From Actinomycetes bacterium (GTDB lineage Bacteria; Actinomycetota; Actinomycetes; S36-B12; UBA5976): a stretch of DNA of 33,705 bases. The notes below the pieces were generated by a model that worked only from the letters and a program-made list of their open reading frames with translations, was not told where the DNA came from and searched no databases. The stretch covers positions 1 to 33,705 of the forward strand of contig JAKAIC010000012.1 of NCBI GenBank assembly GCA_021814565.1. Direction: 5' to 3'. This document shows positions 17,270-25,815 of this stretch, piece after piece (the first letter of the stretch is position 1; each line of letters opens with the position of its first letter). The translations under genes and the position numbers were made by a program.

Positions 17270-17315
17270 GCCGGCAGTGACGGCCCGGGATTTCGGCCCT
17301 CCGGCAGCGCCTTGC

Positions 17316-17321
17316 TAGGCT
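17316..17321 (+). promoter_or_regulatory. Putative -10 box for tRNA-Ala
   Basis: TAGGCT lies 12 nt before the first base of the tRNA, giving a transcription start about 6 nt upstream of the mature 5' end. No good -35 was found. The 64-nt gap after the kinase gene holds only short GC inverted repeats and no convincing terminator. Confidence 0.35.
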
Positions 17322-17333
17322 CGGCCACCGCAA

Positions 17334-17409
17334 GGGGCTGTAGCGCAGTTGGTAGCGCGCTTCGTTCGCATCGAAGAGGCCAGGGGTTCGAATCCCCTCA
17401 GCTCCACCA
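17334..17409 (+). tRNA. tRNA-Ala (anticodon CGC), CCA encoded
   Basis: The 76-nt sequence folds as a cloverleaf. The acceptor stem is GGGGCTG with CAGCTCC, including the G3-U70 wobble pair that is the alanine identity element. The D-arm is GCGC/GCGC. The anticodon stem CTTCG/CGAAG carries loop TTCGCAT with anticodon CGC. The T-arm is AGGGG-TTCGAAT-CCCCT. Discriminator A and CCA are encoded. It decodes GCG alanine codons. It directly precedes the abortive-infection-like locus, so it may mark an integration site, although no repeated tRNA 3' end was spotted nearby. Confidence 0.97.
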
Positions 17410-17420
17410 CTGGGTCTTAT

Positions 17421-17546
17421 GTAAACTAGGACTTCTCCCACAGGTGTACGCAGGCTCACCTGACGACGGCGCAGCCGTGTATGGTTTACCCCGACAGAGC
17501 CCCTGCCAAGCCTCTCCACGATGCTCAAATGCGCAGGGGCCTTCTT
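17421..17546 (+). ncRNA. Putative structured ncRNA upstream of Abi_2/AbiF-like gene
   Basis: Between the tRNA and the HEPN gene there is no open frame but ordered pairing. GTAAAC (17421-17426) can pair with GTTTAC (17484-17489), enclosing hairpin CAGGTG/CACCTG (17441-17446 with 17457-17462) and hairpin ACGGC/GCCGT (17466-17470 with 17474-17478). These are followed by a terminator-like hairpin. Abi_2/AbiF genes are known to be preceded by a conserved structured RNA (the abiF RNA motif), which fits this position. Possible -10 boxes (TTATGT or TAAACT, 17418-17427) would start the RNA at or inside the outer stem, so the GTAAAC pairing is tentative. Membership of the motif has not been tested. Confidence 0.5.
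17499..17546 (+). terminator. Terminator-like hairpin between ncRNA and Abi_2 gene
   Basis: GCCCCTGC (17499-17506) is perfectly complementary to GCAGGGGC (17533-17540), followed by CTTCTT. The 26-nt loop is long. It lies 15-62 nt before the Abi_2 start codon. The RNA-terminator-toxin layout is the arrangement used by RNA-antitoxin systems, where partial read-through expresses the protein. Confidence 0.55.
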
Positions 17547-17560
17547 ACGTTCGGAGTGCG

Positions 17561-18438
17561 ATGAGCGTGAAGCCCTGGCTCAGCCTGGACGAGCAGGTCG
17601 CCTTGCTGCAGGGCCGTGGGCTGATCGTGAGCGACGCCGCCGCCTGCCGCACCTTCCTGCAGCGGATCGGCTACTACCACCTGTCTGGGTACGGTCGGTA
17701 TTTCCAAGTTGACCCCGCCCGAGGAGATAACAGTTTCCGGTCAGGCACGAGGTTCGAAGATATCTCAGAATTGCAGGTGCTGGACTCGCAATTGCGCCTG
17801 TATGCCTGGGCCCACTGGCTGATGTTGAACTGTCATTGCGAACCGGCTTTGCGTATCGGTTTGCTGAGTTGTTTCGAGCGCCGGGCGCATTGTGGCATTC
17901 CACCAGTTTCAGCACCGCGGGATCGTCGACGACCCCGATTCACGAACTCGTGCTTGCCGACCTCGACAAGGCCAAACTGCCATTCATCATCCGGCACCGG
18001 AATAGTCGCGGCCAGTACCCGGATCTACCGGTATGGGTGGCAGTTGAAGCGCTGAGTTTCGGTACGCTCTCGCGTGCAATCGAACACTGCGCCGAAGCTG
18101 ATGTCCGCAAGCACCTTGCCAACGACCTGAATGTCGCGCAGCAAGGTTTCTCTTCGCAGATCCGCGCGTTCGTGACGCTAAGAAACGCTTGCGCTCACAA
18201 CAATCGCCTCTGGAACGACGTGGCCAGGATTCAGGCCTCGGTGCCAAATAACCTGCTGCACCGAGCAAAGAAGCGTGTCGGCAACTTCAACTCAAACAGC
18301 CAGTATCAGGTGCTCGTTGCACTTGCGCAGTTCCTCTCCGGACCTGCCAAAGCACAGGAATTCATGTCCGACGTTGATCAGCTATTGGCAACCAATGACA
18401 CCTTTCGCGCTGGCGTGATGAACCCACGGTCATACTGA
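17561..18438 (+). pseudogene. Abi_2/AbiF-family HEPN abortive-infection protein, disrupted by a frameshift
   Basis: Abi_2 proteins are HEPN-fold RNases linked to phage abortive infection. The first part (ATG 17561, GGAG Shine-Dalgarno 4-5 nt upstream) reads MSVKPWLSLDEQVALLQGRG, then CRTFLQRIGYYHLSGYGRYF and LDSQLRLYAWAHW, typical Abi_2. Near 17805-17821 homology passes to another frame: ADVELSLRTGFAYRFAELF, then LPVWVAVEALSFGTLS and the HEPN motif RNACAHNNRLWN (R at 18181, H at 18196). It ends at 18438. Joining the frames with a 1-nt deletion restores the usual spacing between the LR and VE residues. The shift lies by a GGGCCC run (17808-17813). Composition (lower GC, more AAT/AAC) differs from neighbours, suggesting transfer. 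A sequencing error cannot be excluded. Confidence 0.75.
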
Positions 18439-18797: not shown

Positions 18798-20288
18798 TCA
18801 GAGGTCGTTGCCCGCGTAGGACTGGTTGAAGCTCTTGTTGGTCAGCGGGAAGTCGGGGACGATCGTGTCCGCCAGGGCGACCGGCAGCGCGGTCCAGTTG
18901 AAGAACGATGGATCGACGATCTTGGTCCGCGTAAGGCGCCCGTCGGCAGCGAGTTCTACACGGTGACTGATGAGCCCGCGCCAGCCTTCCACGAAGCCCA
19001 GGCCCGCGCCGGCGCGGGCAGGCTGGACGGCTTGGCCCGACCCGGTGTGCCCGTCGAGACGACGCACCACATCGGCGATGATCCGTGACGAAACCACCGT
19101 CTCCCGCACGCGCAGCAGGTAGCGGCTCATGACGTCGCCGGCAGATTCGACGACTACTTCGAGCGCGTCACCGAGGTCGATGAAGGGATGGTCACGGCGG
19201 GCGTCGATGTCTCTGCCCGAGGCCCGGGCCACATAGCCGAGGGCGTCGAGGCGACGTGCGGATTCGAGGTCGAGGACGGAGGTGCCGCCGAAGCGATCCC
19301 GCACGGTGGCATTGCTCAGCGTCAGCTCTGCCAGTTCCGCAACCTCCTGGGCCAGAGCCGCGACAGCCTTGGTGTCGGGCAGGTCGAGGACACGAGAGCC
19401 GCCGATCAGGACGCCACCCCGAAGCAGGCGATGGCCCGTGACCTGCTCGTTCATGCGCAACATGCGCTCACGTATGCGCAGGGCATGCGCGTTCATCAGG
19501 CCGTACCCGACGTCATTGGCCATGGCGCCTATGTCGGCAATGTGGTTGTGCATCCGCTCGAGTTCGAGCAGCAAGGCCCTGACCAGGAGGTCTTCCTGGC
19601 TGACGTCGATGGCCGCGGCCTCCTCGACAGCCATGGCGAAAGCCAGCGCATGCCCCACTGCGGTATCGCCGCTGACGCGCTCCGCGATCTCCAGGGCGTC
19701 ACCGGGTCGACGACCCTCGAACAGCTGCTCCAGGCCGCGGTGCACGAACCACAGGCGGGCCTTGAAGCGCAGGATGGTTTCGCCGACCACGGAGAAGCGG
19801 AAGTGCCCTGGCTCGATGAGACCCGCGTGAATCGGTCCCACTGGTATCTCGTACACCCCATCGCCTTCGACGGAAAGGAAGGGGAACGAACCGAAGTCCT
19901 CGCTGAATGCCGGCCTCGGCTCGGTGGTGCGCAGCATCGGATGCCAGTCCTCCGGCCAGTGGCCGTGGCGCACGATACGTCGTGGCAGCGGATGGTCGAC
20001 CGGGGTGATGCCGTAAAGATCCCGCACTTCACGCTCGAACCTGCTCACCGCATAGTCGAGCCTGGCCAGGCTGGGGATCCGTGGTTCGTCACGCGACACA
20101 GGCAGCACCAGTTCGACACGTCGGTCATCTGAACTGCGCAGCAGCACATAGACCAGCCGGAACCCTGATTCGTCCTCGTGGCAGGCCACCATCCGCAAGC
20201 GGAATCCATCGGCCAGGTGCGAGGAGAAGACGTCAGGGATGCCCTGCTCCGTCACTGTGATCCGCTCGGTTCTCGACATCGCTGTCAT
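18798..20288 (-). CDS. HycE/HyfG-like large subunit (NuoC-NuoD fusion) lacking Ni-Fe ligands, Ehr complex
   Basis: This is the catalytic-type peripheral subunit of hydrogenase-4/formate hydrogenlyase relatives. The 496-residue product has a NuoC-like N-terminus (FEREVRDLYGI, 84-94) and a NuoD-like remainder (LRFKARLWFVHRGLEQLF). The site that is ERVCGIC in hydrogenases reads ERVSGDT (203-209). The C-terminus ends SFNQSYAGNDL with no DPCxxC; the only cysteine of the protein is C36. It therefore cannot bind a Ni-Fe centre and belongs with energy-converting-hydrogenase-related (Ehr) complexes such as mycobacterial Rv0087. ATG 20288 overlaps the preceding gene by 4 nt. Last gene of its operon. 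Confidence 0.88.
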   Translation of the reverse strand: MTAMSRTERITVTEQGIPDVFSSHLADGFRLRMVACHEDESGFRLVYVLLRSSDDRRVELVLPVSRDEPRIPSLARLDYAVSRFEREVRDLYGITPVDHPLPRRIVRHGHWPEDWHPMLRTTEPRPAFSEDFGSFPFLSVEGDGVYEIPVGPIHAGLIEPGHFRFSVVGETILRFKARLWFVHRGLEQLFEGRRPGDALEIAERVSGDTAVGHALAFAMAVEEAAAIDVSQEDLLVRALLLELERMHNHIADIGAMANDVGYGLMNAHALRIRERMLRMNEQVTGHRLLRGGVLIGGSRVLDLPDTKAVAALAQEVAELAELTLSNATVRDRFGGTSVLDLESARRLDALGYVARASGRDIDARRDHPFIDLGDALEVVVESAGDVMSRYLLRVRETVVSSRIIADVVRRLDGHTGSGQAVQPARAGAGLGFVEGWRGLISHRVELAADGRLTRTKIVDPSFFNWTALPVALADTIVPDFPLTNKSFNQSYAGNDL

Positions 20289-21736
20289 TGTCCCGTCCCG
20301 AGGAGTTGTGCGGCGCGTGCGATGAGGTCCGCAGTGGGGCCGGCGACGAAGCCGAGCATCGCGGTGACCGCCAGAGCAGCGATGAGCGGGACCCGGGGGC
20401 CATGCCAGGAGCGATCGATGTCGGCCTCCTCAGCCGCTGCCTCGCGGCCTCCGAACAGAAGGTCGGCGCTGTGGTGGGCTAGCCCGATGAAGGCGACCAG
20501 CAGCAGCGCGACGGCCGCACCCGTCACCCAGCCCAGGCCGCGCTGGAAGCCGGCGACGATGATCGTCACCTCGGTGAAGAACAACGCGAACGGCGGCATG
20601 CCCAGCAGTGCCAGCATGGCCACCAGGAAGGGTGCGGCCACCGCCGGCCGGCGCGCGAGCAGCGAGCGCAACTGCGCGATCTTCGTGGTGCCATCTGCTG
20701 CGAGGATGCGGCCCGACGCCACGAAGATGCTGGACTTGGCGAGACCATGCCCGAGCATGTGGAGCAGCGCTGCACCGATGGCCAGCGGCCCTCCTATGGC
20801 AGCGCCGAGCGCGATGATGCCCATGTGCTCGATGCTGGAATAGGCGAGCATGCGTTTGAGGTCGCGTTGGCGCATGATGAGAGCGCCGGCTTGGGCGATG
20901 GAAAGCAGGGCACCGGCAATCAGCAGGCTGCGCATGAGCGTGGGTCCGAGCACCTGGTTGGTGATGGCCTGCACGCGCAGGATGCCGTAGAAGGCGACCG
21001 AGAGCAGCACCCCCGACATCAGGCCCGACACCTCGGCCGGAGCCTGACTGTGCGCATCCGGAAGCCAGCTGTGCATGGGCGCGAGCCCGGCCTTGGTGGC
21101 GAAGCCCAGAAGCGTCAAGCCCGCCGCCATCTTCACCAGGCCGTGGTCGAGCGTGCCACCCGAGTGCATGAGCGACACCCATGACAGCGTGGGGCTCCCG
21201 GCCGCCACCGTCGCGGAGTACAGCAGCACGATGCCCAGCAAGGCGATGGCCACGCCGACCGATCCCAGGATCACGTACTTCCAAGCAGCCTCGAGGGCCT
21301 GCCGGGTGCGGTGGTGGCCCACCAGAAAGGCCGTGGTGATGGTGGTCGCCTCGATCGCAATCCACAAGATCCCCAGGTTGTCAGCCAGCACGGCGAGCGA
21401 CATGGCGAGCAGGAATCCGACGAGCAGCACCGGATAGGCGTAGGCCCCGCGCTTCACGACGTCACGGGCTGCCAGACCACCCCAGGTGGCGGTCAGGCCA
21501 ACGGCGCCGATGGCGGTGAGCATGAATGCAGTCAGCGCATCGGCACGCAGCAGGCCGCCGAGTGCAGTGAGCGTGTGACCGGCGAGCACCTGGGTGGAGA
21601 TGGCGAGGCCACTCGCCAGCACGACGGCGGCCGCCAGGACACCGGACAGGCGGTTGAGCCAGGCCTGCCTCGCGAGAGCAGTGATGAGGCCAAGTGCCAC
21701 GCACACGGCAAGCGGGGTGATGAGCAACAGATCCAT
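20285..21736 (-). CDS. HyfF-like proton-translocating membrane subunit (NuoN/NuoM family)
   Basis: Antiporter-like subunit of the Ehr/hydrogenase-4-type complex. The 483-residue product is a polytopic membrane protein with about 14 hydrophobic segments. It carries the family's buried glutamate in WIAIEATTITTAFL and the lysine motif in GFATKAGLAPMHSWLPDAHS followed by APAEVSGLMSG. KRMLAYSSIEHMG and GHGLAKSSIFVASG are also conserved. ATG at 21736 overlaps the upstream stop by 1 nt (TGATG). It likely corresponds to HycQ (Rv0086) of mycobacteria. It probably conducts protons across the cytoplasmic membrane. Confidence 0.9.
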   Translation of the reverse strand: MDLLLITPLAVCVALGLITALARQAWLNRLSGVLAAAVVLASGLAISTQVLAGHTLTALGGLLRADALTAFMLTAIGAVGLTATWGGLAARDVVKRGAYAYPVLLVGFLLAMSLAVLADNLGILWIAIEATTITTAFLVGHHRTRQALEAAWKYVILGSVGVAIALLGIVLLYSATVAAGSPTLSWVSLMHSGGTLDHGLVKMAAGLTLLGFATKAGLAPMHSWLPDAHSQAPAEVSGLMSGVLLSVAFYGILRVQAITNQVLGPTLMRSLLIAGALLSIAQAGALIMRQRDLKRMLAYSSIEHMGIIALGAAIGGPLAIGAALLHMLGHGLAKSSIFVASGRILAADGTTKIAQLRSLLARRPAVAAPFLVAMLALLGMPPFALFFTEVTIIVAGFQRGLGWVTGAAVALLLVAFIGLAHHSADLLFGGREAAAEEADIDRSWHGPRVPLIAALAVTAMLGFVAGPTADLIARAAQLLGTGQ

Positions 21737-22386
21737 CAGTCTCGCAACTCCGTGAGGTCGTCGAGATCGGTGGCGCCGAACTCACTGCGGATGCGGCCGG
21801 TGAGGACATACAGGATGAGGATCACGAGCAGAACGTCAAGCACGACCCCGAGTTCGACGATGATGGGAACCCCGCCCGACGAAAGGAATGCCACGGTCGA
21901 GGTGCCGTTGTCGATGACGAGGAATCCCACCAACTGCACGATGGCGTGGCGACCGGTGACGAGCAGCAGGAATCCGTAGAGCACGAGCGCGATACCGACG
22001 GGGATGGCCTGGATGGTGGGCCCTGTGCCGAGCGATGCCATGGGCGCGCTGACGGCATAGGCGATGGCCGTCAAGGCCGCCATGGCGATGAGTGAGGTTG
22101 CGGTGTTGATGAGTGGGGCGCCGCCCCGCTCTCCTCGACTGCTGCGCACCAACACCAGGGGCAGCACCACCGCCTTGAAGGCGAGCACCAGAACCGCCAC
22201 GCCCAGCAACTCCGGGCTGTGCTGCTTGAGGCCCAGCACAGCCACCAGTCCTGCAAGCGCCAGGCCTTGCAGTGAAATGAGCGGAAGTGCGGCGGCCTGC
22301 GCGCGACGCCACACCAGGAGCACTGCGGACAGCAGCATCGCGGCGGAGCAGGTGCCGATCAGCTGTGCGAATAGGGCGTCTGTCAT
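21736..22386 (-). CDS. HyfE-like membrane subunit (NuoK-related)
   Basis: Small integral membrane subunit of the hydrogenase-4-type complex. The 216-residue product has about six or seven hydrophobic helices, beginning AQLIGTCSAAMLLSAVLLVW. It contains RHAIVQLVGFLVIDNGTSTV, the part that resembles NuoK, and a hydrophilic end (RSEFGATDLDDLTELRD). The ATG at 22386 lies 2 nt after the preceding stop. It corresponds by position to HycP (Rv0085) in mycobacteria. Confidence 0.86.
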   Translation of the reverse strand: MTDALFAQLIGTCSAAMLLSAVLLVWRRAQAAALPLISLQGLALAGLVAVLGLKQHSPELLGVAVLVLAFKAVVLPLVLVRSSRGERGGAPLINTATSLIAMAALTAIAYAVSAPMASLGTGPTIQAIPVGIALVLYGFLLLVTGRHAIVQLVGFLVIDNGTSTVAFLSSGGVPIIVELGVVLDVLLVILILYVLTGRIRSEFGATDLDDLTELRD

Positions 22387-22388
22387 TT

Positions 22389-23342
22389 CTACACCGTCAC
22401 CGTCAGGTAGGACGTGATGACCGCGAGCAGGGCGAGCACGAAGGAACCGGCGAGCAGTTCAGGTACGCGGAAGAGCCGGAGTTTGGCGAGGAATACCTCG
22501 ATGGTCGCCAGCGCCATCGCCAGCACCGCCAGCCGGAGCCCCAGCGTGAGCACTCCGACCAGCAACGGCAAGGGCGCGACCTCGAGCGCCATGCCCCACG
22601 GCAGCGCCAGCGCACCGATGAGCCCGAGCATGGCGGAGAGTCGGAGCCATGAGCCGAGTTCCAGCCAGGCCAGGTCGCGACCCGAGCTCTCCAGAACCAT
22701 GGCCTCATGCACCATGGTGAGCTCGAGATGCGTTGACGGGTTGTCAACGGGCATGCGACTGGTCTCGGCAACGACTGCGATGGCGAGTGACACCATGGCC
22801 AGCAGGCTGACCGGCGCCGCCATGGTCGCGGGCTCAGCGATGCGCTGGTTGACGATTCGGGACAGCGCGGAGGAGCCGATGGGGACAGAGAGCGCGTAGA
22901 TGGAGACAAGAACCGTCGGCTCCACGAGCGCGGCGATGGTCATGTGCCTGCTTGATCCCATGCCGCCGAAGGCCGAACCCGCATCGAGGCCGACCAGTGC
23001 CAGTGCGACGGTTCCGATGAGCAGTACCCCGACCACGACGAAGAGGTCGTCGGGCAGCCCGGGGAAAGCGATGGTGCCAACCAGCGGGATGAGCGCACAC
23101 AGGATCAGGCTCGACACCACAAGCACGATGGGGCCGACTGCCTGGATCCAACTGATGCCCGGCGCACGGAGCGGCTCCTTGCGCATGAGCTTGCGCAGAT
23201 CGCGCCACGGCTGCCCGACGCCGGCGCCGACTCGCCCTTCCAGCAAACTTCGCACCTGGCGCATGATGCCCACGAGCAGCGGAGTGAAGGCGATCATTGC
23301 CATCACCTGGATCAGCGCCAACAAGGCCGGTGCCACGTTCAC
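22389..23342 (-). CDS. HyfC/HycD-like membrane subunit (NuoH family)
   Basis: NuoH-type subunit that connects the peripheral arm to the membrane arm. The 317-residue product has about eight hydrophobic helices. Cytoplasmic loops carry family motifs: KLMRKEPLRAPGISWIQAVG near the N-terminus and ETSRMPVDNPSTHLELTMVH followed by EAMVLE, the acidic loop characteristic of HycD/NuoH. GTG 23342 overlaps the upstream stop by 4 nt (GTGA). It is equivalent to HycD (Rv0084) of mycobacteria. Confidence 0.9.
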   Translation of the reverse strand: MNVAPALLALIQVMAMIAFTPLLVGIMRQVRSLLEGRVGAGVGQPWRDLRKLMRKEPLRAPGISWIQAVGPIVLVVSSLILCALIPLVGTIAFPGLPDDLFVVVGVLLIGTVALALVGLDAGSAFGGMGSSRHMTIAALVEPTVLVSIYALSVPIGSSALSRIVNQRIAEPATMAAPVSLLAMVSLAIAVVAETSRMPVDNPSTHLELTMVHEAMVLESSGRDLAWLELGSWLRLSAMLGLIGALALPWGMALEVAPLPLLVGVLTLGLRLAVLAMALATIEVFLAKLRLFRVPELLAGSFVLALLAVITSYLTVTV

Positions 23343-25330
23343 AACGACATCACCACCAGCACCACCAGGAATGCGACGAACGAGTAGGCCAGGTAGAAGT
23401 GGATCTTGCCGTTCTGCAGGCGTCTGGCGGATGCGCCGATGCGCTCCACGAAACTGATGATCGGCGTGTACAGACGCGAGTCGAAGACGTCGGAAAGTCG
23501 CTGACGGTACTGGATGCGATCCACCAGATATCGGGCCTCGGTCGAGTGCGTGACGATGACGTCACGCTCGGGGCGCAACGAGTCGTCGAAGATGCGCGAC
23601 AGCGGTTCGGCGTACGAGGTGGCGGTGTACTGCATGCGCGGGCTCAACCGGTTGCCGCCACAGCCCCAGGCCAGATCCACCGCACGACGCGGCCGTTTCC
23701 GAGCCACGACAGCCGCGGTTGCGACCACCGGCAGGACCAGGACCAGGGCCAACGCGAGGAGTTGGCCCGGGTTGAGCGTTGCCGCCACACCCGAGAGATC
23801 GATGGTCAGCGGTCCCGTTGCCTTCACGCTGCTGATCCCCGCTGCCAGGGCTATGGCGTGCGCGGTCAGCCCCGGCGTCAACCCCATGGCGATGACAATG
23901 GCCGCACCCAGCAGCATGGCGATACGCATGCTGATCGGCGACTCCTTGGCACGGGATGTGCCTTCGCTGCGGGGGCGCGCCAGAAACGCGATCCCGTAGG
24001 CCTTGACGAAGGTCATGAGCGCGAGCCCAGCGGTCAGGGCAACTGCCCCGACGGCGATGGGCATGGTGATGGCGAGAATCCGGTTGGTGGCGCCGGCACC
24101 GTGGATGAGCGACTGCAGCAGCACCCATTCGGAGACGAAGCCGGCCGTCAGCGGTAGTGCCGCAGCTCCCAGCGCCGCGAGGCCGAAGGCGATGCTCGTG
24201 ACGGGCATGCGGCTTCCGAGGCCGCCGAGAAGATCGAGGTCGCGCTGCCCGCTCGCTCGCAGGATGGAACCGGCTCCAAGGAAAAGTGTGGTCTTGAAGG
24301 CGGCGTGGGCGATGACGAGGAACAGGCAGGCAGCGATCGCCGAGTCGGCAACGGCGTTGATCCCGTTGGCGCGCAACATGGAGGCGGCACCCAGTGCGAG
24401 GAACATGAGCCCGACATTCTCGGTGGTGGAGAAGGCCAGCAGTCGCTTCAGGTCGCTGGTCACCGACGCTTGCAGGATTCCGTAGACCGCGGACACCGTG
24501 CCCAACGCCAGCAAGAGCACGCCCCACCACATGGTGTCAGCCCTGAGGAACTGTGTGGACGTCAGGATGGCTCCGTAGATGCCGAGCTTCACCATGGCCG
24601 CGCTCATGAGCGCCGAAACGTGGCTGGGCGCTTCCGGGTGTGCGCGCGGAAGCCACACATGCAAGGGGACGATGCCGGATTTCGCGCCGAAGCCGAGAAC
24701 CAGGAGCACGAAGGCCAGATTGGCGGTGGCTGCGTCCCAGTGGGTGGCCCGGAAGACGGCGAACTGCGTGCTGCCCGCCCCGGCGCTCAGAATCCCCAGT
24801 CCGATGAGCACCAGGAAGAAACTCAGTTGCGTCATAGCCACGTACCAGAGGGCGGCGGTCTTGACTGCCGGCCGCTGCGCGTGCTCGGTCACGACGAGTA
24901 TCGCCGAGGTGACCGCCATGAGCTCCCACGCGAGCAGGAACGCAACCACGTCAGCCGCAGCAGGTACGAATTCCATGGCCGTGACGAACACGGCGAGCGC
25001 GATCCAGGAGGTGCGCGATGCGGCAGGGCCGTGCACGTAGCCGATGGCGTAGATCCCGCAGATGGCGCCGACCGCACCGATGACGAGCATGAAGTAGCCA
25101 CCGAGCGCCGATGGCGCGAACGTGACCGCGCCCAGGGGAATGGTGATGGGCACCGGCAGACTGCCGTGCTGTCCCGTGACTGCGGCCCAGCCCGTCACGA
25201 CACCGGCGATGCCGATCGCGCTCACCACCGGACCGGTGAGCAGGGCGCGGTAGCGCGCCGGAGCGACGATGGCGACGGATATTGCCAGCAGCATGAGCAG
25301 GAACTGGACGAGCAGGCTGGTGTCGATCAC
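23339..25330 (-). CDS. HyfB-like proton-translocating membrane subunit (NuoL/NuoM family)
   Basis: Largest antiporter-like subunit of the complex, 663 residues with about 16 hydrophobic helices. It shows the buried glutamate in LLAWELMAVTSAILVV and the lysine motif GFGAKSGIVPLHVWLPRAHP followed by EAPSHVSALMSAAMVKLG. LKRLLAFSTTENVG and a C-terminal hydrophilic stretch (RIFDDSLRPERDVIV) before a last helix are typical of HyfB. GTG 25330 overlaps the NuoB-like stop by 4 nt. It likely corresponds to Rv0083. No Na+/H+ specificity can be read from sequence. Confidence 0.9.
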   Translation of the reverse strand: MIDTSLLVQFLLMLLAISVAIVAPARYRALLTGPVVSAIGIAGVVTGWAAVTGQHGSLPVPITIPLGAVTFAPSALGGYFMLVIGAVGAICGIYAIGYVHGPAASRTSWIALAVFVTAMEFVPAAADVVAFLLAWELMAVTSAILVVTEHAQRPAVKTAALWYVAMTQLSFFLVLIGLGILSAGAGSTQFAVFRATHWDAATANLAFVLLVLGFGAKSGIVPLHVWLPRAHPEAPSHVSALMSAAMVKLGIYGAILTSTQFLRADTMWWGVLLLALGTVSAVYGILQASVTSDLKRLLAFSTTENVGLMFLALGAASMLRANGINAVADSAIAACLFLVIAHAAFKTTLFLGAGSILRASGQRDLDLLGGLGSRMPVTSIAFGLAALGAAALPLTAGFVSEWVLLQSLIHGAGATNRILAITMPIAVGAVALTAGLALMTFVKAYGIAFLARPRSEGTSRAKESPISMRIAMLLGAAIVIAMGLTPGLTAHAIALAAGISSVKATGPLTIDLSGVAATLNPGQLLALALVLVLPVVATAAVVARKRPRRAVDLAWGCGGNRLSPRMQYTATSYAEPLSRIFDDSLRPERDVIVTHSTEARYLVDRIQYRQRLSDVFDSRLYTPIISFVERIGASARRLQNGKIHFYLAYSFVAFLVVLVVMSL

Positions 25331-25815
25331 GTGCCGGTCACCGATCGCAGGGCGCGGACGATCGCGTCGGGAGTCGGTGGGCAGCCCGGAATCTCGAGAT
25401 CAACCTCGACCACGTCGCTCACGGCACCCACCACGCCGTAGCAGTTCGCGAAGATGCCGCAATTCCGGGCGCAATCGCCCATCGCGATGACCAGCCTGGG
25501 ACGCGGTGTCGCCTCGACGGTACGTCGAAGCGGCTCCTGCATGTTGTGGGTCACGACACCGGTGACCAGCACGACGTCCGCATGCCGCGGCGAAGCGACC
25601 AGACGTGCGCCGTAGCGCTCAAGGTCGTACACGGGGCCGAAGGCATTGGCGATCTCAATCTCGCAGCCGTTGCAGGACCCGGCGTCGACATGCCTGATCT
25701 GCACCGTGCCATTAAGTTCTGCAGGGCGGTCGGGCAGTGGCTCCGGTCGCTGCGGGGCGGGCTCGGCCACACGTCCCGTGCCGACCATGAGTTGGACAAC
25801 CTTGCGGATGCTCAT
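25327..25815 (-). CDS. NuoB/HycG-like [4Fe-4S] small subunit
   Basis: Electron-transfer subunit adjacent to the large subunit in complex I and group 4 hydrogenases. The 162-residue product has all the expected ligands of one [4Fe-4S] cluster: CNGC (C48, C51), GDCARNCG (C115) and GCPPTP (C145). So the iron-sulphur path is intact although the Ni-Fe site of the partner subunit is missing. It is the first gene of the six-gene operon. ATG 25815 has no strong Shine-Dalgarno. No HycB/HyfA-like ferredoxin subunit, formate dehydrogenase or hyp maturation gene is nearby. Confidence 0.9.
   Translation of the reverse strand: MSIRKVVQLMVGTGRVAEPAPQRPEPLPDRPAELNGTVQIRHVDAGSCNGCEIEIANAFGPVYDLERYGARLVASPRHADVVLVTGVVTHNMQEPLRRTVEATPRPRLVIAMGDCARNCGIFANCYGVVGAVSDVVEVDLEIPGCPPTPDAIVRALRSVTGT

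Follow-up and report, generated by a model that had tools for sequence, protein, structure and literature searches.

Ehr complexes are widespread and include an operon of Mycobacterium tuberculosis that is annotated as a formate hydrogenlyase (FHL). The M. tuberculosis hyc genes have been tied to hypoxia and macrophage stress (PMC2799521; PMC6901956), and the archaeal MBS complex provides a precedent for direct catalysis by the proximal cluster after loss of the [NiFe] site (PMC7684303). Here, we describe a related operon in a 33,705-nucleotide stretch from an Actinomycetes bacterium (contig JAKAIC010000012.1), referred to throughout as the window. The operon occupies positions 25815-18798 on the minus strand and consists of six open reading frames (ORFs), beginning with the small subunit, followed by HyfB, HyfC, HyfE, and HyfF, and ending with the large subunit (S-B-C-E-F-L). 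It almost surely encodes an Ehr-type non-hydrogenase complex. The favored interpretation, to which we assign a probability of about 0.5, is that the complex of the window acts as a redox-linked ion pump, in which one cluster would take electrons from a soluble donor and hand them to an acceptor located in the vacated pocket. The new result of this study, as far as the sequences can tell, is the repeated loss or reduction of the sole [4Fe-4S] cluster in Ehr relatives.

The large subunit (18798..20288, minus strand, 496 residues) is a HycE-like fusion of NuoC and NuoD without the [NiFe] ligands. It contains NuoC and NuoD/NiFe-N-terminal domains and aligns with HycE over most of its length (7z0s_E, E-value 5e-62), the closest solved relatives of the two peripheral subunits being the large and small subunits of FHL and the MBH hydrogenase. 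As the earlier note on the window had read, and as the translation and the alignment with HycE bear out, ERVSGDT at residues 203-209 (19662..19682, minus strand) stands where hydrogenases have ERVCGIC, and the C-terminal DPCxxC is missing. SFNQSYAGNDL at residues 486-496 (18801..18833, minus strand) takes its place. The four [NiFe] ligand positions are occupied by S206, T209, S490, and G493, and the chain stops just after the C-terminal motif with neither an extension nor a maturation peptide. Conservation was counted in 85 relatives with large subunits at least 48% identical (83 for the C-terminal positions): S206 is found in 80/85, G207 and D208 in 85/85, and T209 in 83/85, while S490, Y491, G493, N494, and D495 are each present in 83/83. 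A single-chain AlphaFold model (predicted local distance difference test, pLDDT, 82) has HycE as its top fold match (7z0s_E, template modeling score 0.84); as pLDDT lies below 50 at residues 490-496 and 129-171, no claim about the pocket is drawn from the model.

Because the replacement residues are near-invariant, the former active site is a new site maintained under strong selection, not one in decay. The loss of the catalytic ligands, together with the erosion of cluster ligands in sister lineages described below, could be taken as the mark of a degenerating pseudo-operon, but this explanation is extremely improbable given that all six frames are intact and overlapping and have a normal GC content by codon position, that the replacement residues are invariant across ∼85 relatives, and that the operon occurs in more than 20 genera. 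The frames overlap or nearly abut along the whole operon, with intergenic gaps of -4, -4, +2, -1, and -4.

The gene names and the best family matches would instead suggest a [NiFe] hydrogenase or FHL, which is how the homologous operon of M. tuberculosis is annotated. This reading is opposed by the substitution of all four [NiFe] cysteines by near-invariant S/T/S/G, by the missing C-terminal peptide, and by the content of the host genome, an actinobacterial draft of 2.0 Mb and 97.7% completeness. No HypD was found in the host, where HypA, HypB, HypC, HypE, and HypF were not searched and HypD represents the maturation system, or in four further genomes that carry the operon and are at least 95% complete; the complex is thus independent of [NiFe] maturation. 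The host lacks a second [NiFe] large subunit, and a formate dehydrogenase was not recognized in it, the matches to PF00384 being NuoG, NarG split over two contigs, and a weak fragment of 263 amino acids. The earlier statement that no hyp or formate dehydrogenase genes lie nearby is correct and, for HypD, holds genome-wide. Since the [NiFe] ligands, HypD, a second large subunit, and a recognized formate dehydrogenase are all lacking, hydrogenase or FHL function is excluded in practice.

A quinone-reducing proton pump, in effect a short complex I fed by a soluble donor, draws on the homology to NuoD and NuoB, on the remodeled cavity that adjoins the cluster, and on a host respiratory chain with Nuo (contig C3) and, as identified by sequence, a nitrate reductase (Nar) operon that includes a NarK-like transporter gene. 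This chain makes quinone-based respiration plausible. However, the positions of the quinone-head His and Tyr of complex I (NuoD) correspond to I158 and G207 in the window, which are fixed non-ligands in close relatives, and hydrogenase rather than NuoD gives the top match in both sequence and fold. Quinone reduction is therefore an unlikely reaction for this complex. The absence of both the [NiFe] ligands and the quinone His and Tyr rules out hydrogenase chemistry as well as that of textbook complex I.

The six ORFs, all on the minus strand, were assigned with Pfam and NCBIfam at E-values of 1e-12 to 1e-163, well beyond chance. The HyfB-like antiporter subunit (23339..25330, 663 amino acids; NF005086 hydrogenase 4 subunit B, 1e-163) keeps E136, K217, D293, K295, H342, K346, E401, and K443, and the HyfF-like antiporter subunit (20285..21736, 483 amino acids; NF005044 hydrogenase 4 subunit F, 3e-99) keeps E129, K153, K215, K294, H330, K334, and E389; all 18 charged or histidine positions checked in the two are as in HyfB and HyfF. 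The HyfC/NuoH-like membrane anchor (22389..23342, 317 amino acids; PF00146, 2e-31) retains the Glu/Asp cluster E141, E193, D200, E207, E213, E218, and E282, and its 13 checked positions match HycD and HyfC apart from two K/R exchanges. A HyfE-like membrane subunit (21736..22386, 216 amino acids; NF008556 hydrogenase 4 membrane subunit, 2e-16) completes the membrane part, and the earlier description of the proton-channel subunits as complete agrees with the residues checked in HyfB, HyfF, and HyfC.

Relatives were gathered with a large-subunit search of 396 genomes of the phylum (threshold 1e-60), which gave 17 matching genomes with two DR(V/I)CGIC hydrogenases among the 17 matches. Searching 395 genomes of the class with the small subunit gave 33, and 80 named loci were read. 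The nearest large-subunit relatives of the window are metagenome-assembled genomes (MAGs) and Nocardioides, at 62-70% identity. In a tree that samples four hydrogenases and one NuoCD, and without the published Ehr reference sequences among its rows, all Ehr large subunits stand apart from the hydrogenases, namely HycE, HyfG, and the pair of actinobacterial DR(V/I)CGIC enzymes (support 100/98), the large subunit of the window lies outside NuoD and the true group 4 hydrogenases, and the mycobacterial rows fall in the same 28-row clade as the window. Gene order, phylogeny, and motifs alike support the assignment to Ehr and the plan of the Rv0082-Rv0087 type, both put forward in the earlier note, which had also proposed such a tree. 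Two members of the wider set deserve mention in their own right. The Ehr sequence of L059 (JABBOD010000003.1), a contig labeled as Acidobacteria, nests beside Microbacteriaceae, pointing to mis-binning or lateral transfer. L108 (G338 contig C350) encodes a large subunit with ERACGAD...ELCYACADR, which retains some [NiFe] cysteines, along with four cluster cysteines, and is a possible intermediate between hydrogenases and Ehr.

The small subunit of the window (25327..25815, minus strand, 162 amino acids; PF01058, 4e-32) is NuoB/HycG/MbhJ-like, with HycG as the nearest solved chain (7z0s_G, 3e-33) and MbhJ as the next. It retains the four [4Fe-4S] ligands C48, C51, C115, and C145 (CxxC, C, C) that the earlier note had counted, along with the extra cysteines C119 and C125. 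All four cysteines are present in the clade nearest to the window and in the majority of the wider clade, and the most variable of them, C145, is found in 72/78 close relatives. The exceptions near the window form a side branch of MAG G2_35, Cryobacterium, and Lacisediminihabitans. Cryobacterium and G2_35 have C-C-C-T/S at the ligand positions, and Lacisediminihabitans profunda (L027:4050-4808), beside the clade of the window, has G-C-A-S with one cluster cysteine left out of four, even as the other subunits of its complex are 48-65% identical to those of the window.

Ligand loss extends further in other actinobacterial families. Family f19 has C-C-P-S with shifted cysteines, a second operon of family f28 has C-C-C-N, and T-C-D-D is found in six f28 genomes of two genera (L103:3945-4442, L105:3885-4343, and L118-L123), whose small subunits are 69-94% identical over aligned columns; a sequencing error cannot explain a state that six genomes share. 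The T-C-D-D operons retain the S-B-C-E-F-L order and every checked HyfB, HyfF, and HyfC residue (five readable operons), as well as the modified site S-G-D-S/T...S-Y-S/A-G-N-D where the large subunit is complete, and no suitable substitutes were seen among the conserved cysteines of their large or NuoH-like subunits. Judged from these ligand sets, the T-C-D-D and G-C-A-S small subunits almost certainly cannot hold a cluster, and the family almost certainly includes members without any redox center. By analogy with MBS (PMC7684303), the three-cysteine small subunits could still hold one. On the aligned residues, what the family conserves throughout is the modified pocket together with the ion path rather than the cluster, and this makes a redox-free transporter a serious rival for the family. 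In the f28 operon with C-C-C-N (L182, L183, and L184), an Ehr-like arrangement in the order C-E-F-L-S-B, A and T occupy [NiFe] ligand positions and the HyfF-like subunit has Ala at an otherwise universal Glu (E129 of the window). In a cluster-free Ehr operon, an AHSA1/polyketide-cyclase-like gene (L181:4144-4575) directly follows the large subunit; a similar gene, Rv0088, lies after the M. tuberculosis operon.

The complex consists of a membrane part with two antiporter-like subunits, a HyfE-like subunit, and a NuoH-like anchor, joined to a peripheral arm of two proteins that would hold one [4Fe-4S] cluster and a remodeled, metal-free former active site. In a redox-linked ion pump, a soluble low-potential donor, such as a ferredoxin or flavoprotein, may dock at the place of HycF, MbhN, or NuoI and reduce the cluster. 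The cluster would in turn reduce an acceptor, either small or hydrophobic, that sits in the cavity formed by S206-G-D-T209 and S490-Y-A-G-N-D495. This step is modeled on the proximal cluster of MBS, which reduces polysulfide directly. Charge changes in the cavity could then drive H+ (or Na+) along the Glu/Lys path, probably in a function linked to energy limitation or low oxygen. A redox role is the likelier one for the window because all four ligands are kept, as they are in its closest relatives apart from the side branch. The respiratory chain of the same cell, the MBS precedent, and the link of the M. tuberculosis genes to hypoxia and macrophage stress also speak for this reading. Several observations weigh against a redox-linked pump: no ferredoxin-like subunit that could wire the single cluster is encoded in the operon; among the families listed for the flanks of ∼35 lineages, no ferredoxin, flavoprotein, formate dehydrogenase, or other redox gene recurs; the well-supported branches of the large-subunit tree, which does not draw on the ligand columns themselves, require the ligand state to have changed four times or more; and no biochemical work on a complex of this kind was found. 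Since ligands were lost at least four times with the rest intact, redox chemistry is dispensable for the function that is conserved across the family. Proton or sodium pumping, as advanced in the earlier note, is consistent with the intact channel residues, which are its one support; the electron partner that it left unnamed gains from the four ligands kept in the window and loses from the missing redox neighbors and the recurrent ligand losses.

The missing redox neighbors and the recurrent ligand losses favor a redox-independent ion transporter, either a secondary antiporter or a gated ion pathway, in which the arm acts as a ligand-binding or structural regulatory module. Such a transporter would be comparable to Mrp, which has related membrane subunits, and the cluster, where kept, would be structural or a sensor. 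It would account for T-C-D-D being fixed in six genomes with gene order and proton path intact, for G-C-A-S beside the clade of the window, and for the same S-G-D-S/T...S-Y-x-G-N-D site with and without a cluster. In contrast, the window and most of its clade keep the four cysteines, and selection would not preserve cysteines that are not used; moreover, the proposal specifies neither the energy source nor the transported ion. It is a possible but less likely explanation. The broader version, in which the Ehr complexes of actinobacteria have ceased to be redox enzymes and have become hydrogenase-derived ion transporters whose remodeled pocket binds a gating ligand or charge, with the cluster losses as the trace of this change, is slightly more doubtful still.

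The flanking genes of ∼35 lineages were assigned with Pfam after a first clustering was set aside, as automatic ORF calling had produced antisense shadow ORFs in these high-GC loci. ArsR accounts for 23/109 upstream and 4/111 downstream proteins, and phosphoenolpyruvate carboxykinase (PEPCK; 6 downstream), universal stress proteins (5 downstream), and CBS domains also recur. Together with the lack of redox genes, these neighbors fit the hypoxia and stress regulation described for the operon of M. tuberculosis (PMC2799521; PMC6901956). Most relatives have an ArsR gene immediately upstream of the operon; none lies upstream of position 25815 in the window, and ArsR-like genes of 38-44% identity are found elsewhere in the host genome. 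In L061 (11461-14290) and other Pseudonocardiales, conserved genes downstream of the operon encode proteins of 97 and 250 amino acids without an NCBIfam family and are followed by a GTP-dependent PEPCK. A SulP-type anion transporter lies near the operon in three lineages including Streptomyces (L023:153-1877, L057:137-1675, and L027:1327-3012), which could hint at a bicarbonate or sulfate linkage. Next to the operon of the window, an Abi_2 (abortive infection-like) gene at 17312-18438 is spread over two reading frames, which reflects either a pseudogene with a frameshift or an error in the sequence. A weak PF00346 match on host contig C13 was rejected as a part of the operon; it is a stand-alone NuoD-like gene of 284 amino acids (L112:7730-8584) on a 9.8 kb contig with no further Nuo subunits seen.

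The cluster-free relatives, which retain the complete ion path along with the modified pocket, provide a natural test of whether electrons are required. If they are not, the complex I superfamily would allow coupling to be studied without redox chemistry.

Among described systems, the operon of the window shares its gene order with Rv0082-Rv0087 (the hycDPQE operon). The mycobacterial relatives L056, L065, and L110, which stand in here for the Rv genes, have large subunits 55-59% identical to that of the window with ERISGDT or ERVSGDT sites; L056 and L065 have an ArsR gene upstream, whereas the window lacks an Rv0081-like ArsR. Ehr complexes (PMC6349859, PMC10284858, PMC7304191) likewise combine group 4-like and antiporter subunits without Ni/Fe cysteines; the window differs in having a minimal set of six genes that lacks a ferredoxin subunit and is not accompanied by formate dehydrogenase or NuoE/F-like genes. 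The large-subunit fold, the equivalents of HyfB/C/E/F/G/I, and the proton-path residues are shared with E. coli Hyc and Hyf, but HyfA, HyfD, HyfH, HyfJ, and HycI equivalents and the [NiFe] ligands are missing, and the small subunit is shorter and, unlike in Hyf, comes first in the gene order. The homologous core and charged membrane path of respiratory complex I (NuoB/CD/H/L/M/N) are present without the quinone His and Tyr, the NADH module, or NuoI, NuoA, NuoJ, and NuoK. Archaeal MBS has ferredoxin-type clusters, two of the four [NiFe] cysteines, and a proximal cluster on three cysteines (PMC7684303), whereas the window has four cluster cysteines, no [NiFe] cysteines, and no ferredoxin subunit in the operon. 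Both are former hydrogenases that have lost [NiFe] cysteines and in which the proximal cluster faces an empty cavity.

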